Shown here: one piece after another, positions 21,239 to 30,539 of the stretch | Position numbering within the stretch: position 1 is the first letter of the stretch | Layout of the letters: each line of letters opens with the position of its first letter | Origin: Anaerolineales bacterium | GTDB lineage: Bacteria; Chloroflexota; Anaerolineae; Anaerolineales; RBG-16-64-43 | Reading direction: 5' to 3' | NCBI GenBank assembly: GCA_016932475.1 | Contig: JAFGCU010000125.1 | Span: 1-64,000 of the forward strand | DNA: 64,000 nt | The notes under the pieces: generated by a model | Database searches by the model: none | Seen by the model: the letters and a program-made list of their open reading frames with translations, nothing else | What the model was told of the DNA's origin: nothing | Made by a program: the position numbers and the translations under genes

Positions 21239-21288
21239 ATGTAAGGACCGCCATTCCGGCAACGCGAATCGGCCGCGGATTATATTGG

Positions 21289-21296
21289 TATACAAT
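21289..21296 (+). promoter_or_regulatory. Probable -10 of paralog 3 with overlapping inverted repeat
   Basis: TATACAAT follows TGG, giving an extended -10 shape, about 49 bases before the chosen GTG start. The surrounding ATATTGGTA/TACAATAT is a near-perfect inverted repeat with one bulged G and could be an operator. No convincing -35 is seen. Confidence 0.35.
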
Positions 21297-21344
21297 ATCG
21301 ATGAAGGTCGGGCATCGGACAACGTGGGGGAACGGAGATCCGAA

Positions 21345-23618
21345 GTGATCGCGAGGGAAGCCAAGCGGCACACCGTCGGCGTTCTGTTCAACAGCCATGT
21401 ATACACCGGGATGTACCCGAATATGTTTGCGTCCACCATCATCCGGGGAATCCAGGCGGCGGCCCGCGATCAATCGGTGAATCTGCTGGCGGCGTGCGGC
21501 GTGTCGCATGGCGCGGAACTAGTTCAATTTCACCCGGCCTGGCCCGAACTCTTGTCGGATACGGATTTCATACCGGTCGGACCGTGGAACACGGATGGAT
21601 TGCTGGTGTTTTCCCCGCTTCACTCCCAGGAACGAATTCGGTACATCCGCCGGTTGCAGGATCAACTTTTCCCGGTTTATTTTATCGGAAGCGGAGCCGG
21701 CTCCCCCTCCATCACCGTCGATAACGAGGGGGGAATTCGTCAAACCCTCGAGCATTTGGTTAGTCATGGGCATCGGGATATCGCGTTTATTGCGGGGGAT
21801 CCGGAGGATCCGGGAGACAGCGCCGCCCGGATCCGCGCTTATCAACTCGGCGTGCGCGAGTTCGGATTGGCCGACGATCCACGGCTGATGGAATACGGCC
21901 AGCACTGGGATCAGGCGGCCTACCATGCGGTCCGGCGGATCCTGAAATCCGGCGTAAAGTTCACCGCGGTCATGTGCAGCAACGATCAATCCGCGCTGGG
22001 GGTGATGAGGGCTTTGCACGAAGCCGGGTCGCGGATTCCATGGGACGTCGCGGTTACCGGATTCGACGACCAGCCGGAAGCGCTGACGCTCATCCCGCCG
22101 CTGACCAGCGTCCATTACCCGCTGTTCGAGACGGGGTACCGCGCGCTGCTGATGATGCGGAAGCGGATCGAGGACGGCCCCGGAGCGATCCCGGATGTGG
22201 CGCGGGTGTACACCCAGTTGATGACCCGGCAATCCTGCGGATGCCTGCCGCAAATGAACGACGGCGCGCTGGGAGTTCACGAAGCCGCCTTATCGGCGGA
22301 CAAGGGCGACTTCAACCGCTACCGGGAAGATCTGGGCCAGGCGATGATCGAAACGCTGATCTCCCATTCGTCTCCGCAGAATATCTCCGACACGCGGATG
22401 CTGTGCGACCGGTTGATCGACGCGTACCTGCACAGCCTCGCCGACGAGGACCTTTCCCATTTCCAGGTGGCGTTGATGGAGATCCTGCAGCGGATTGAAA
22501 TACTGGAGGAGGATCCGCATGCCTGGCAGTCGGCCATCACCGTGCTGCGCTTGTGCGCGCGCATCCCGCCCGCCGAAACGGTCGGATACCGCAACGCCCT
22601 GCTGGGGGAGGATCTGCTCCATCAGGCGCGGACGCTCATCAGTGACAGCGCCCGCCGTCAGTTCACGCGCCTCCATTTGCTGCAGACCCGCAAGGATGAG
22701 GCGCTTGGACGCCTGACTGCGCGCCTGCTTTCCTCGCTTGACGAACAACGGATCTTCGAGGCGCTGAAGGAGAACCTCCCCCAGGTCGGGATCCGCGAAT
22801 GCCATGTGATGTACTTTGAACCCCGGGGGGAAGATCCGTACGGGGGCAGCGTGCAGGCGCCGCTGGGGAGGGAATCGCCCGACCTGCGGTTCGAGAGCCG
22901 CCGCTTCCCGCCTCCCGGCATTTTTCCGGAAGATAAACCCTTCAACCTGGCGATTCTGCCGCTGTTCTTCCAGCAGGAAAATCTGGGGTATGCGGCCTTC
23001 GACGGACAGGATCTGGATTCACTGGCGATCGTCGCTGTCCAGCTGGCGACGGCGATCAAAAGCGCGCAGCTGCACGGGAAAGTGCTGGAACTTTCCCTGA
23101 CGGACGGGTTAACCTCCGTCCACAACCGCCGTTTCTTTGAGATCCTGCTCGAGAAGGAAATCGACCGCAGCCGCCGGTATTCCCGCAACCTGGCGGTCAT
23201 CATGGCGGATATCGACCTGTTCAAAACATATAACGATTCGTTCGGCCACCAGGCCGGCGACGAGGCGCTCCGGGAAATCGCACAATGCATCCGCGACGGC
23301 GCCCGCCGCGGGCTGGATGTCGTCACCCGTTACGGCGGGGAGGAATTCGCCCTCATCCTGCCGGAGACGGACGAAGAAGGGGCCTGGATTGTCGCGGAGA
23401 AAATCCGCCGGACGGTCGCCTCCGACAGCCGCTTCCTCCGCCGGATAACCGTCAGCCTCGGGATCGCATCGATGCACGGAGAACAATTGGATGCCCGGAT
23501 GCTGGTGGAACAGGCGGACCGCGCCTTGTACCAGGCGAAAAACCGCGGCCGGGATTGCACGGTGCGGTTTGAAAGCGGGATGATCGAAGCCGCGCATCCG
23601 GGAGCGCCCGGCGATTAA
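21345..23618 (+). CDS. LacI-type binding domain + GGDEF diguanylate cyclase (paralog 3)
   Basis: About 757 residues with the paralog layout: LacI-like sensor (VGVLFNSHVYTG, PVGPWNTDG, HGHRDIAFIAGD, VTGFDDQP), QSCGCLPQ near 295, helical and GAF-like middle, and a GGDEF domain with RYGGEEFALILPETD near 663 plus RGLD as inhibitory site. Active c-di-GMP synthesis is expected. I chose the GTG at 21345, which has GGAG at 21335-21338; an in-frame TTG at 21285 would place a -10-like TATACAAT inside the gene. Followed by a terminator at 23620. Confidence 0.92.
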   Translation: MIAREAKRHTVGVLFNSHVYTGMYPNMFASTIIRGIQAAARDQSVNLLAACGVSHGAELVQFHPAWPELLSDTDFIPVGPWNTDGLLVFSPLHSQERIRYIRRLQDQLFPVYFIGSGAGSPSITVDNEGGIRQTLEHLVSHGHRDIAFIAGDPEDPGDSAARIRAYQLGVREFGLADDPRLMEYGQHWDQAAYHAVRRILKSGVKFTAVMCSNDQSALGVMRALHEAGSRIPWDVAVTGFDDQPEALTLIPPLTSVHYPLFETGYRALLMMRKRIEDGPGAIPDVARVYTQLMTRQSCGCLPQMNDGALGVHEAALSADKGDFNRYREDLGQAMIETLISHSSPQNISDTRMLCDRLIDAYLHSLADEDLSHFQVALMEILQRIEILEEDPHAWQSAITVLRLCARIPPAETVGYRNALLGEDLLHQARTLISDSARRQFTRLHLLQTRKDEALGRLTARLLSSLDEQRIFEALKENLPQVGIRECHVMYFEPRGEDPYGGSVQAPLGRESPDLRFESRRFPPPGIFPEDKPFNLAILPLFFQQENLGYAAFDGQDLDSLAIVAVQLATAIKSAQLHGKVLELSLTDGLTSVHNRRFFEILLEKEIDRSRRYSRNLAVIMADIDLFKTYNDSFGHQAGDEALREIAQCIRDGARRGLDVVTRYGGEEFALILPETDEEGAWIVAEKIRRTVASDSRFLRRITVSLGIASMHGEQLDARMLVEQADRALYQAKNRGRDCTVRFESGMIEAAHPGAPGD

Positions 23619-23900: not shown

Positions 23901-26183
23901 ATGGAAAACACAAAGCGGTATACGGTCGGCGTGCTTATCGGTTACCACGTATATGAGGGATCTCACCCGACTCCCTTCGCCTTTCCTTTAATCCACGGTA
24001 TGCAGGCCGCCGCGCGGGATAAGAATATTAACCTTATGGTTGCCTGCGGGGTAATCCGCGGAGCGGCTTTGAACCTGCACCGGTCGGCTTGGCCGGAGCC
24101 CGACCCGGAAATGGATTTCGTGCCGGTCGGTCCGTGGAACACCGATGGATTGGTCTTCATCGGCCCGCTCCGGTCGGAAGCGCGAATCCGGTATGCCCAA
24201 AAATTACGGGACGGGGGTTTTCCGGTTGTGGTCCTGGGCAACGATGCCGGCCCTCCCGCGATCGTGGTCGATAATGAAGGCGGCATCCGTCAGGTTTTGG
24301 AACATCTGGTGGGCCATGGCCATAAGGAAATCGCGCTGATCGCCGGCGATGAGCAGGATGCCGGCGACAGCATGGCGCGGCTGAACGCCTACCGGGAGGG
24401 TGTCCGGGAATTCGGATTAAGCGGCGACCCGCGGCTGATGGAATTCGGGCAACACTGGGAGACCGGGGGCTACGATGCCATGCGGCGGATCCAGCAATCC
24501 GGCGTGAAATTCAGCGCCGTGATGTGCAGCAACGATTTGTCCGCCCTGGGGGCGATGCGGGCTTTGCGGGAAGCGGGGATCCGCATCCCATGGGATGTGG
24601 CGGTCGCCGGATTCGACGACATCCTGGAGAGTTTGGCGCAGGTTCCTCCTTTGACCAGCGTTCATTATCCCCTGTTCGAAACGGGATACCGCACCTTATT
24701 GCTTTTGCACAAACGAATTACGCAGGGTCCCGGCGGAGTGCCGGACCTGACCCGCATAACCACCCGGCTGGTGGCGCGGCAATCCTGCGGATGTTTGCCG
24801 GATGTGGTTGCCAAATCCGCGGGCGGTGCGGATCCCAACCGGATACAGGCGGATCCCGCCTCGCGGGGGTTCAAGGACGAGCTGACGCACTGGATGCTGG
24901 AAGCGCTTCTGATGGAATACCCGCAATCCCATGGGGAGGATTTTTTTCCTCTTTGCGAACGGCTTGCGGATAGTTTTTTCCGCAGTCTGGAGGATGAGGA
25001 CTTTGCCCATTTTCAATCTTCGCTGACCGAAATACTGCAGCGCGTGGAAATGACGGATGATGAGAGCGCCCAACTCTGGCAATCCGCGGTCTCCGTGTTG
25101 CGCCAGGCGGCCTATTCGGTGCTGGATGGAAAGGGCGATGCCGCGCGCACCCGGTGCGCGGAAGACCTGCTGCATCAGGCCAGGATGATGCTGAGCGAAA
25201 GCGTCGATCGGCGGTATACGCGGCTGCAGGCGAGGCGGACCGATCTCGATGAAAGCATAGGGCTCCTCACCGCACGCCTGATCTCCTCCCCGGACGAGGA
25301 CCAGGTCTACAGCGCGTTGCGGGAGGACCTTCCGCGGGTCGGCGTGCGGACATGCCACATCGTGTTGTTTGAGCCGCAGGGGGAAGATCCGGTGGCGGTG
25401 AGTCTTCTGCATTCCGTGGAAAAAGACGCGCCGACTCTTCGGTTCGAGACCCGGCATTTTCCCCCGCCGGGTTTGTATCCGGCGGACGAGCCGTTCAACC
25501 TGGCGCTCCTGCCGTTGTTCTCCCAGGAGGAGGAAATGGGGTACGTTGCCTTCGACGGCGGAAACCTGGATCCGCTGGCGACGCTGGTCCGGCAACTTTC
25601 CTCTTCGATAAAAAACGCCCAATTGCACGCCAAGGTGTTGGAGCTGTCGCTGAGAGACGGGTTGACGGAAGTGCACAACCGGCGGTTTTTCGAAATCATG
25701 CTGCAGAAGGAAACGGAAAGGAGCCGCCGCTACAAACGGGATCTGGCGGTGATCATGATCGATATAGATTATTTCAAAAGGTACAACGATGCCTATGGGC
25801 ATCCGGCGGGGGATGAGGCGTTGCGGGAAATCGCCCGGTGTATCGAACAAGGAGCGCGGCGCGGTCTGGATGTCGTGACCCGCTATGGCGGCGAGGAATT
25901 CGCCATCATTCTTCCGGAAACGGACGAGGGCGGCGCGCAGATCGTGGCGGAAAACGTGCGCACCCGGGTGGCAGGCAATCCGAAATTCCTCCGGCCGACG
26001 ACGGTGAGCCTGGGGATCGCCTCATTGCGGGGGGAGCAGCTGCAATCCCAAATGCTCGTGGAGCAGGCGGACCTGGCCATGTATCAGGCCAAGTCCCAGG
26101 GCCGGAATCGAAGCGTCGTATTCGAGGATTGGATGCGCGAGGCGGAACACACTCCCAAGGGCGGGGGAAACGCGGAGGCGTGA
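23901..26183 (+). CDS. LacI-type binding domain + GGDEF diguanylate cyclase (paralog 4)
   Basis: A 760-residue protein with the same order of parts: VGVLIGYHVYEG, PVGPWNTDG, HGHKEIALIAGD, VAGFDDIL, RQSCGCLP near 295, a middle region, and GGDEF from about 583 with RYGGEEFAIILPETD near 662 and the RGLD inhibitory site. It should make c-di-GMP under control of a small ligand bound in the cytosol. Its codon use has more AT-ending codons than paralog 2, hinting at different age or origin, which I did not quantify. The ATG at 23901 has only a weak upstream site. A shared terminator at 26239-26266 ends it. Confidence 0.92.
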   Translation: MENTKRYTVGVLIGYHVYEGSHPTPFAFPLIHGMQAAARDKNINLMVACGVIRGAALNLHRSAWPEPDPEMDFVPVGPWNTDGLVFIGPLRSEARIRYAQKLRDGGFPVVVLGNDAGPPAIVVDNEGGIRQVLEHLVGHGHKEIALIAGDEQDAGDSMARLNAYREGVREFGLSGDPRLMEFGQHWETGGYDAMRRIQQSGVKFSAVMCSNDLSALGAMRALREAGIRIPWDVAVAGFDDILESLAQVPPLTSVHYPLFETGYRTLLLLHKRITQGPGGVPDLTRITTRLVARQSCGCLPDVVAKSAGGADPNRIQADPASRGFKDELTHWMLEALLMEYPQSHGEDFFPLCERLADSFFRSLEDEDFAHFQSSLTEILQRVEMTDDESAQLWQSAVSVLRQAAYSVLDGKGDAARTRCAEDLLHQARMMLSESVDRRYTRLQARRTDLDESIGLLTARLISSPDEDQVYSALREDLPRVGVRTCHIVLFEPQGEDPVAVSLLHSVEKDAPTLRFETRHFPPPGLYPADEPFNLALLPLFSQEEEMGYVAFDGGNLDPLATLVRQLSSSIKNAQLHAKVLELSLRDGLTEVHNRRFFEIMLQKETERSRRYKRDLAVIMIDIDYFKRYNDAYGHPAGDEALREIARCIEQGARRGLDVVTRYGGEEFAIILPETDEGGAQIVAENVRTRVAGNPKFLRPTTVSLGIASLRGEQLQSQMLVEQADLAMYQAKSQGRNRSVVFEDWMREAEHTPKGGGNAEA

Positions 26184-27811: not shown

Positions 27812-28783
27812 CTAATCCGGATGGAACAACGAAACCATCGTCTCCAGTCCGTCGATCAGCCGCGGACCCGGGCGAAGCACGAGGTTGCTGTCGATCGGAA
27901 ACACCCGTCCGTTTTTCACCGCGGTCAGGGTTCCCCAGCCCGGCCGCTCGGCGACGGATTCCGGTGTCGCCCCGAAAGCCGCGTCCCCGAGCAGAATGAT
28001 GTCCGGATCTCGGCGGAAGATTTCCTCCGCGGAGATCTGCGGCCATTCGGAAGCCAGCGCCGAGGCCAGGTTCCGTCCGCCCGCCAAAGTGATCAGCAAA
28101 TCGATGAAAGTTCCCGGTCCGGCGGTGTACGGGCGCGCCGGATCGTCGGCGCCCAGTTCGAAAAACACGAGCGGCAGATCGGCCGCGCCGGCAACCCGCC
28201 GGGCAACCGCTTCGAACCGCGACCGAAGCGACTCCTCCAACGCCGCGGCGCCGGCGGCGCGGCCGGTGAGTTCGCCGATCGCGCGGATATTCGCATACAA
28301 TCCATCCGGCAATGGCGCCGGATTGGCGACATAGAAGACCGTCAGCCCGAGCGCGCGCATTGACTGAACCTGCTCGGCGGAAATGATCTCCGCCGCGAGC
28401 ACCAGGTCCGGTTCGAGCGCCGAAATGGATTCGACGTCGAGCGTGCCGTATCCGGCGGATATGGTCGCCAGGGGCTTGGCCGCCTCGGGATAATCCGAGA
28501 ACTGATCGGCGCCTGCCAGCAGGTCGTCCGCACCGATCGCGAAGAGGATCTCCGTATTCGAAGCTCCCAGCGAGACGATCCGCTTGGCCGGACCGGGTAT
28601 CGTTATTTCGGTCCCCAATCCGTCGGTCAGGCGGATCGGCGGCTGTTCGGTGACCGTCGCGGTCTGCGAGGGCAGGGCGGCAGCGGGAACGGAGGCGGGC
28701 GGCGATACGGCCGCCGGGGCGCAGGCGGAGAGAGCGGCGGCAAAGAACACCAAACCCAACAGCATTTTTCTATAAAGCTTCAT
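27812..28783 (-). CDS. Cobalamin-type ABC transporter substrate-binding lipoprotein (BtuF-like)
   Basis: A 323-residue lipoprotein. The signal peptide ends in LSAC, so the mature protein is lipid-anchored outside the membrane. The fold is the two-lobe helical-backbone type: KRIVSLGASNTEILFAIGA near residue 80, VESISALEPDLVLAAE, and RRDPDIILLGDAAFG in the second lobe. Such proteins bind cobalamin, heme or ferric siderophores; the B12 riboswitch directly upstream makes a corrinoid the best guess. No permease or ATPase gene follows, as glnA is next with its own promoter. The start is the ATG at 28781-28783, preceded by GAGGAGACC; a much longer frame runs back through the riboswitch and is rejected. 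Confidence 0.9.
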   Translation of the reverse strand: MKLYRKMLLGLVFFAAALSACAPAAVSPPASVPAAALPSQTATVTEQPPIRLTDGLGTEITIPGPAKRIVSLGASNTEILFAIGADDLLAGADQFSDYPEAAKPLATISAGYGTLDVESISALEPDLVLAAEIISAEQVQSMRALGLTVFYVANPAPLPDGLYANIRAIGELTGRAAGAAALEESLRSRFEAVARRVAGAADLPLVFFELGADDPARPYTAGPGTFIDLLITLAGGRNLASALASEWPQISAEEIFRRDPDIILLGDAAFGATPESVAERPGWGTLTAVKNGRVFPIDSNLVLRPGPRLIDGLETMVSLFHPD

Positions 28784-28927: not shown

Positions 28928-28961
28928 GAAAAATAAAACCCCTGTTCCATGGAACAGGGGT
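28928..28961 (-). terminator. Leader terminator of the B12 riboswitch
   Basis: On the minus strand an exact 24-base palindrome (28938-28961; half ACCCCTGTTCCA) is followed by TTTTATTTTT. It sits between the riboswitch and the BtuF-like gene, so ligand binding probably controls termination. Confidence 0.85.
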
Positions 28962-28971
28962 GCGGATGGGA

Positions 28972-28992
28972 CTACGTGAATCCCGTAAACAT
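28972..28992 (-). CDS. Six-codon leader ORF (MFTGFT)
   Basis: Between riboswitch and terminator, AAGGAGG (29000-29006, minus strand) lies seven bases before an ATG that opens a frame of six codons, Met-Phe-Thr-Gly-Phe-Thr, then TAG. It is flanked by GGTGCGGA and TCCGCACC, which could pair and place the whole frame in a loop. The ribosome site is stronger than that of most genes here. Translation is plausible but untested. Confidence 0.4.
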   Translation of the reverse strand: MFTGFT

Positions 28993-29004
28993 GTCCGCAC
29001 CTCC

Positions 29005-29160
29005 TTCCAGCGAGGCTGGTGGGAACGCAGTGCGGCGGGCGACCTGGCTTACCGCGTCGGGCGCGGATTACAGTTGCGTGACAGCTCCGGACTTTCACCG
29101 GCTTCGCCTTTAAGCCCTCCCATCCGGGGGAGCAGGCACCGACACTGCTGATATTCTGTT
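29005..29160 (-). ncRNA. Cobalamin riboswitch
   Basis: On the minus strand the leader contains the B12-box core GCCGGTGAAAGTCCGGAGC followed by TGTCACGCAACTGTAAT and AAGCCAGGTCGCC, in the order of the family (Rfam Cobalamin), with GTCGGTGCC upstream near 29140. It is followed by the leader ORF and terminator and then the BtuF-like gene. It senses adenosylcobalamin or a related corrinoid. Borders are approximate. The stretch 28784-28927 holds only leader sequence. Confidence 0.92.
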
Positions 29161-29183
29161 GGCCGTGATTATAATCAAAGGTG

Positions 29184-30539
29184 ATGAACAGTCAAGCGGA
29201 TGCGAAGAAGTTAACGATCCTCGGTGGCGGATTGGCCGGAAGCGAAGCGGCCTGGCAGGCGGCCGAGCGCGGCATCGCGGTGACGCTGATCGAGATGCGG
29301 CCGGGAAAAAAGACCGGCGCGCACCGCGGCGGGGACTTGGCGGAGCTGGTTTGCTCCAATTCGCTCGGGTCGGACCTGCCGGACCGGGCCGGCGGCCTGT
29401 TGAAGCGCGAATTGGAGCGGATGGGATCGCTTCTCCTGGCCTGCGCGCGCGCGACCGCCGTTCCGGCCGGTTCGGCGCTGGCGGTCGACCGGGATGCTTT
29501 CGCCCGGCTCGTCACGGAAAAAATTCTTGCTCATCCGCGGATCACCGTTGTCCGGGAGGAGGCGGTCGCGATGCCGCAGGGGCCCGCGATCGTCGCGACC
29601 GGCCCGCTGACCTCGCCCGCGTTTGCCGCCGCATTGCGCGCCCTGACCGGGATCGAGCACCTTTACTTCTTTGATGCCATTGCCCCGATCATCACCGCGG
29701 ATTCCATCGACCGCGGCACGGCGTTTTCCGATTCGCGCAACAACCTCGCCGGGGATTACCTGAATTGCCCGTTGAACGCGGAAGAATACCGGAGATTGGT
29801 CCGCGCCCTGATCCAGGCCGAGACGATCCCGCTGCGGGAATTCGAACGGGAGATCCCGGAAGGCGTGCGCGCGGGGGCGGGGCGGTTTTTCGAGGGATGC
29901 ATGCCGGTCGAGGAACTTGCCCGGCGCGGACCGGAAACCCTCGCATACGGAACGATGCGCCCGGTCGGGCTTGCCGATCCGCGCACGGGCGGGCGGCCGC
30001 ACGCTGTGGTCCAATTGCGCCAGGAAAACGCCGCGCGGAGTATGTATAATCTGGTCGGCTTTCAGACGAATTTGCGGGAAGCGGAACAGGCCCGTGTTTT
30101 CCGGACGATCCCCGGGTTGGAGCGCGCGGAATTCGTGCGCTACGGGCAGATGCACCGCAACACGTACCTTAACGCGCCGCGCCTGCTCCGGACGACTCTC
30201 CAGCTGCGCGGGCGCGAGGATTTGTTTTTCGCGGGCCAGTTGGCCGGGGTGGAAGGCTATGCCGGCAACATCGCCACTGGGCTGCTGGCGGGCTGGAATG
30301 CGGCCCGGCGGCTGCAGGGGAAAGCGCTTCTGGCGCCGCCGGTGGAAACGCTGAGCGGCGCGTTGTGCCATTACGTGACGCACACGGCGCAGGGCATTTT
30401 TCAGCCGATGAAAGCCAACCTTGGGCTGCTTCCGCCGCTAGAGAAAAAGCGGATGAGCAAATGGGAACGAAGCCGCCGTTTGACGGAACGCGCGATGGAG
30501 GTGTTTGACCGATGGTGGATGGAGGTATCCGGATCTTGA
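29184..30539 (+). CDS. trmFO: Methylenetetrahydrofolate-tRNA-(uracil-5-)-methyltransferase
   Basis: A 451-residue FAD enzyme that makes 5-methyluridine at tRNA position 54, using methylenetetrahydrofolate and NAD(P)H. The N-terminal dinucleotide fold reads ILGGGLAGSEAA, then LIEMRPGK, CSNSLGSD, FEGCMPVEE with the catalytic Cys near residue 235, RPVGLADP, and FAGQLAGVEGYAGNIATG near the end. Length is normal for the family. The start is ATG 29184 or the GTG just before it. A TATAAT at 29170-29175 ends only eight bases upstream, so the mRNA may be leaderless. It overlaps the next gene. Confidence 0.97.
   Translation: MNSQADAKKLTILGGGLAGSEAAWQAAERGIAVTLIEMRPGKKTGAHRGGDLAELVCSNSLGSDLPDRAGGLLKRELERMGSLLLACARATAVPAGSALAVDRDAFARLVTEKILAHPRITVVREEAVAMPQGPAIVATGPLTSPAFAAALRALTGIEHLYFFDAIAPIITADSIDRGTAFSDSRNNLAGDYLNCPLNAEEYRRLVRALIQAETIPLREFEREIPEGVRAGAGRFFEGCMPVEELARRGPETLAYGTMRPVGLADPRTGGRPHAVVQLRQENAARSMYNLVGFQTNLREAEQARVFRTIPGLERAEFVRYGQMHRNTYLNAPRLLRTTLQLRGREDLFFAGQLAGVEGYAGNIATGLLAGWNAARRLQGKALLAPPVETLSGALCHYVTHTAQGIFQPMKANLGLLPPLEKKRMSKWERSRRLTERAMEVFDRWWMEVSGS

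Follow-up and report, generated by a model that had tools for sequence, protein, structure and literature searches.

In the corrinoid riboswitch of Priestia megaterium metE, a repressing element, an L5–L13 kissing loop holds the P13 hairpin, whose 3′ arm otherwise forms an antiterminator with the 5′ arm of the terminator; the accessible part of that report demonstrates the P13/antiterminator switch by mutation and describes no leader ORF (PMC10653944). In env8 and Escherichia coli btuB, B12-stabilized docking of P13 through L5–L13 hides the ribosome-binding site of the structural gene (PMC10907184, PMC10653944). Translated upstream ORFs (uORFs) near B12 riboswitches are already known from Mycobacterium tuberculosis, in which short translated or translatable ORFs at metE and ppe2 alter downstream expression. 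These uORFs act on translation; metE yielded no intrinsic terminator, and at ppe2 the uORF acts through termination–reinitiation at an overlapping gene start (PMC11260477). The same 2024 study stated that the effect of riboswitch-associated uORFs on expression had not been addressed until then (PMC11260477). Finally, TnaC-like attenuators combine a short leader ORF with slow termination at its stop codon, which could alter transcription (PMC10941005, PMC8012679).

Here we analysed a cobalamin riboswitch leader in a 64,000-nucleotide stretch of DNA (the window) from an Anaerolineales bacterium. Like P. megaterium metE, it is read as a repressing switch in which L5–L13 holds P13 and the P13 3′ arm otherwise becomes the antiterminator, but here the loop of the antiterminator encloses a start codon and an in-frame stop. 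As in env8 and btuB, we propose that B12 hides a ribosome site, although here the site belongs to a mini-ORF that precedes a terminator. The leader shares with the M. tuberculosis systems a short ORF at a B12 riboswitch, whereas the overlap of uORF stop and gene start seen in ppe2 is absent: the mini-ORF ends at 28972 and the gene starts at 28783, 188 nt further on, with the terminator in between. Unlike TnaC-like attenuators, the peptide is not conserved beyond the type of its last residue, and the ligand would be sensed by RNA rather than by a nascent chain. We found no earlier report, in the library of open-access papers searched, of mini-ORFs inside terminator-type cobalamin platforms.

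The riboswitch leader, mini-ORF, terminator and regulated gene all lie on the minus strand. A sigma-70-like, promoter-like site, TTGACT-N16-TATAAT (29168–29195; 11 of 12 consensus matches), precedes a full-length match to the cobalamin riboswitch aptamer (RF00174, model positions 1–189; 29017–29159), which scored 50.7 bits, above the gathering score of 31.5, with E values of 1.4e-11 to 9.7e-12. The regulated gene (27812–28783) encodes a BtuF-like B12 ABC transporter substrate-binding protein of 323 amino acids (Pfam PF01497, E = 1.3e-34), which scored 91.9 bits against the NCBIfam BtuF model NF002894, under the cut-off of that model. This gene context fits corrinoid binding by the predicted aptamer. 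The promoter-like site reaches into the beginning of trmFO, a divergent gene that runs on the plus strand from about 29184, and interference between the two transcripts is therefore possible. In the protein scan of named genomes, which amounted to just two loci, the nearest relative by BtuF protein was that of an Anaerolineae bacterium (L039; 46% identity), and its leader has a Shine–Dalgarno (SD)-like arm without an ATG at ribosome-site distance. Elsewhere in the window, two neighbouring, similar long ORFs on the plus strand (21285–23618 and 23901–26183) look, from their translations, like fusions of LacI-type sensor domains with GGDEF domains.

The sequence that resembles a ribosome site has structural duties. 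AAGGAGG (29000–29006) forms the 3′ arm of P13, a hairpin expected to dock on L5 once B12 binds. P13 occupies 28994–29025, with CGCTGGA as L13 and a 3′ arm (29005–28994) containing the ribosome-site sequence; its L13 partner is the L5 region GCTGTCACGCAACTGTAA (29068–29085), placed by its position in the Rfam alignment and by L5/L13 variation. The hairpin is conserved order-wide, and relatives in the order carry CCAC-CUC-UCGCGGA-AAGGAGG-UGG, that is P13, directly 3′ of the aptamer. In predicted folds, at least four of the last six bases of the SD-like arm are paired upstream in 127 of 155 leaders, and five of six are in this leader. L5 and L13 vary together across about 150 leaders, in a pairing register that we set by eye: most relatives combine L5 UCCCGC with L13 CGCGGA or CGUGGA, many combine UCGCGC with CGCNGA, and this leader and a homologue in another genus of the family (L005) combine UCACGC with a bulged CGCUGGA.

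The stem that encloses the mini-ORF was also found as the first-pass annotation had described it: GGTGCGGA (29001–28994) pairs with TCCGCACC (28966–28959), and the coordinates bear out that it shares bases with both the ribosome site and the foot of the terminator. The stem can be extended to AGG.GGUGCGGA/UCCGCACC.CCU and is the predicted antiterminator (28956–29005; 29005–28994 with 28966–28956), being present in stepwise folds of this leader, with a duplex energy of −20.6 kcal/mol versus −14.3 kcal/mol for shuffled partners. Downstream, a terminator scan placed an intrinsic terminator (28929–28961; −17.3 kcal/mol) with a 10-pair stem at 28961–28938 followed by the U-rich tail TTTATTTTTC. The P13 3′ arm is thus predicted to pair alternatively with the terminator 5′ arm and is followed by an intrinsic terminator, as in terminator-type repressing cobalamin switches of the P. 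megaterium metE kind. In predicted folds the ribosome site of this leader is also buried within the antiterminator. The first-pass annotation had recognized neither the P13 arm nor the antiterminator. For both AAGGAGG and the ORF-enclosing stem, the structural jobs come first: the strong ribosome site that had been claimed is there as sequence, but it is explained in the first place as a P13 and antiterminator strand.

The mini-ORF itself matches the first-pass description in every detail: between aptamer and terminator, AAGGAGG (29006–29000) is followed by 7 nt (28999–28993) and by ATG TTT ACG GGA TTC ACG TAG (28972–28992; MFTGFT*), with the ATG at 28992–28990 and the TAG at 28974–28972, 13 nt upstream of the terminator. 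Its SD:anti-SD duplex is calculated at −15.9 kcal/mol. Because P13 supplies that strand, an SD-like arm is expected, and an ATG at SD distance would, taken alone, not be remarkable. Among 396 genomes of the class, the exact 21-nt SD–ATG motif (0 mismatches) occurs only in this genome and in that of L005 (G001), the only other exact platform among the genomes searched. The two leaders share 33 identical nucleotides from P13 through the ATG, and L005 keeps ATG and TAG five codons apart, with an interior that is identical at just 4 of 15 positions (MFTGFT* here, MNSIRT* there). By eye, the enclosing stem offers neither the AUG nor the UA of the stop a pairing partner that could account for its conservation; the isolated fold of this leader pairs the UAG inside the loop.

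We compared 149 attenuator-type leaders from 66 genera of the order, with partly hand-curated calls of P13 and terminator; the leaders in this set and in the one described below were drawn from higher-scoring aptamer matches, and kinship was handled by collapsing to genus, with no tree. An ATG stood at ribosome-site distance in 35 of the 149, and 90 had no ATG, GTG or TTG there, which rules out a universal ORF in such leaders and makes the mini-ORF dispensable for such switches in general. The observation that the first-pass annotation had named as its own refutation, homologous leaders with the stem and no ATG, thus occurs: many relatives keep the SD-like arm without an ATG, so the stem is independent of the ATG. 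These leaders bear on the simplest alternative, that P13 yields an SD-like strand and that an ATG and a stop lie nearby by accident, with no translation. The same architecture in leaders without a start is what such an accident predicts, as is the lack of a difference in SD strength between ORF-bearing and ORF-free leaders (P = 0.56), a result that also removed our candidate idea of a stronger SD where an ORF is present. A raw test for the presence of GGAGG or AGGAG, in the order set alone and not corrected for relatedness, gave P = 0.04.

The reading frame tells against accident. Among the distinct leaders of the order with an ATG 3–11 nt after the SD, 20 of 30 had an in-frame stop ahead of the terminator, and the two other frames gave 5 and 5; shuffles predicted 7.4, none of 200,000 simulations reached 20, and the genus-level P value was 1.6e-4. 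The stops also came later than shuffles predict (relative position 0.60 versus 0.47, P = 0.02). The excess of ATG in the order set was clear by position (Fisher P = 2e-8) and not significant against shuffles once collapsed by genus (20 versus 16.1 ± 3.1).

Because the order set had already been explored, a test set was taken from outside the order (62 leaders, 52 genera, automatic P13 and terminator calls), and three tests, the stop-frame test among them, were written down before it was drawn. The frame test replicated: 18 of 31 were in frame versus 7 and 6 out of frame, with 8.3 expected (P = 9.5e-5; genus level, P = 5.5e-5). The other two tests failed in this set. An ATG at ribosome-site distance, a comparison that was not predeclared, occurred in 27 of the 52 genera versus 9.8 ± 2.7 in shuffles, and GTG, TTG, CTG and ATA at the same distance showed no such excess. 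By eye, the pattern was not clear in the 30 best-scoring leaders of the wider phylum, which are mostly from outside the class.

Together with the conservation of ATG and TAG in L005, the frame-specific stop excess in two sets and an ATG excess unaccompanied by other start-like triplets leave the accidental explanation very unlikely, the replicated frame test weighing most. Judged from comparative sequence statistics, the mini-ORF is far beyond chance, since its stop is in frame, the same holds in other genera and the test set replicated it, and the proposal that the start, frame and stop of these mini-ORFs are under selection is well supported. Comparative statistics also support the aptamer–P13–terminator architecture. 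The conservation check suggested with the first-pass annotation thus came out on both sides, positive in L005 and in the class-wide frame excess, but negative in the order leaders that lack a start.

Mini-ORFs that end before the terminator are 1–11 codons long, with peptides unrelated between genera, and no nascent peptide sequence was conserved across genera; only a final Pro or Thr is enriched. A peptide of six residues is too short to span the ribosome exit tunnel. Of 37 mini-ORFs, 20 (54%; 12 of 19 and 8 of 18 in the two sets) have Pro or Thr as their last sense codon, a post hoc signal noticed while going through the peptide lists. The controls were 20% in the same zone of leaders without an ORF (P = 6e-6), 14% in shifted frames (P = 8e-7) and 11% before stop triplets in leaders without a start (P = 1e-6). 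Thr is depleted at bacterial protein C termini, and C-terminal Pro and Thr have been connected with stalled termination; in a Mycoplasma pneumoniae expression assay, C-terminal Pro or Thr had no effect (PMC7246954). The stops span from 29 nt upstream of the terminator to 1 nt inside it, and in many relatives they fall at −8 to +1.

We lean slightly towards a model of a repressing cobalamin riboswitch that has an intrinsic terminator and, in addition, a mini-ORF, such that P13 gates ribosome loading and a pause at the stop biases termination. Without B12, P13 would not be held, and its 3′ arm, with AAGGAGG, would be free for the antiterminator or for a ribosome. With B12, the L5–L13 kissing interaction would hold P13 and hide the ribosome site, and the terminator would fold. 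A loaded ribosome would translate a few codons and pause, often after Pro or Thr, at a stop located at the terminator foot or immediately ahead of it; from there its footprint would extend over the antiterminator 3′ arm and, in most relatives, over some of the terminator 5′ arm as well. A ribosome paused at a stop reaches about 12–15 nt past the P site (PMC8012679). Counted from the first base of the stop, the estimated reach extends to the terminator for 16 of 20 ORFs from the order set with 15 nt and for 13 of 20 with 12 nt, which favours antitermination by the ribosome at the class level; there, translation would most likely act, on balance, against termination at low B12. The fuller version, in which the ribosome acts as an antiterminator class-wide, with B12 gating its loading through P13 and slowing at Pro/Thr–stop keeping transcription going, is tentative, and we consider it somewhat more likely to be wrong than right.

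We had also considered that the ribosome takes the place of the RNA antiterminator. In the order set, leaders with an ORF had the weaker antiterminators (P = 0.04; 0.005 by raw energy), but the test set trended in reverse (P = 0.07), and the idea was rejected because the signal was not replicated; both sets combined showed no difference (P = 0.98), and stop position had no significant relation to antiterminator strength.

The 13-nt gap between stop and terminator makes this leader the one in which the sign of the effect is least certain: a ribosome on that stop would cover the antiterminator 3′ arm (28966–28956) and just touch the terminator foot. One possible consequence is the opposite regulation, in which the mini-ORF ribosome blocks the antiterminator and promotes termination, so that shut-off would also occur at high translation capacity. 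The position of the SD inside the antiterminator 5′ arm fits this arrangement, as does a footprint that hardly reaches the terminator. A ribosome at the −8 to +1 stops of many relatives would, however, mask the terminator, and we regard such a negative role as distinctly unlikely.

The main rival to the gating model, which we judge unlikely, gives the mini-ORF no sensing role: early stops would only release ribosomes, unavoidably bound at the SD-like P13 arm, before they reach the terminator and so protect repression by B12. That P13 includes the SD-like arm as a structural element, that the stops precede the terminator (a ribosome at the stop in this leader would nearly clear the stem) and that the order set shows no genus-level ATG enrichment are all consistent with this idea. 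It would, however, favour loss of the ATG, against the strong genus-level enrichment in the test set; it sits poorly with stops that come later than in shuffles; and Pro or Thr ahead of the stop would slow release. On the gating model, ribosomes are probably a working part of this B12 switch; that the mini-ORF is actually translated, that ribosomes pause at its stop and which sign the effect would have we infer. Of the translational layer first suggested for this leader, the comparative statistics favour a selected, translated mini-ORF, but its direction here is not readable from the sequence.

Variant leaders show how far the arrangement can shift. Two leaders of one genus (L189 and L193) have a minimal start–stop, AUG-UGA or AUG-UAA, directly after P13, and in genus g106 a GTG or TTG has, six codons further on, a TGA or TAA at the terminator foot. 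In L264, L276 and L323 the stop lies 18–19 nt inside the terminator hairpin. The P13 arm is in SD position for an ORF that is apparently the gene itself in L168, L169 and L238, and in L279, L293, L314, L340 and L356, and likewise in L163, the frame that opens at the P13 ribosome site crosses the terminator and meets no stop within 200 codons; the gene may thus start at the P13 site, and the terminator may be coding. A plausible conjecture about the history of these leaders is that P13 was first a translational gate and that terminators were acquired afterwards.

Three further observations concern related leaders. The second cobalamin riboswitch of this genome (L001; G000:C29:142596-142432, minus strand), on the same contig about 113 kb from that of the BtuF-like gene, precedes a BtuC-like reading frame; its P13 3′ arm (AAAGG) is followed without a gap by a possible GTG start, and the first codons would contain a terminator-like hairpin with a U tract. 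In another species of the genus (L006), a btuF-like gene has a differently built P13 and again an AUG mini-ORF, MADPQSPDP*, with its stop at the terminator foot. Six leaders of a family in the same phylum and outside the class (f77; L366, L368, L374, L377, L380 and L382) have, in the interval from P13 to the terminator, AUGGUAAAUCCCUGA or a sequence close to it, an element that is probably structural because L382 drops the AUG and keeps the remainder.

A mini-ORF between P13 and the terminator is found again and again across a bacterial class, and its statistical signature was replicated. If the gating model is true, a textbook transcription-terminating riboswitch would have the ribosome as a moving part, and cobalamin leaders classed as either transcriptional or translational could be both. 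The link between corrinoid sensing and translation would be directly testable by simple reporter mutations. Should the ribosome prove to be the antiterminator, corrinoid level and translation capacity would be read jointly by one element.
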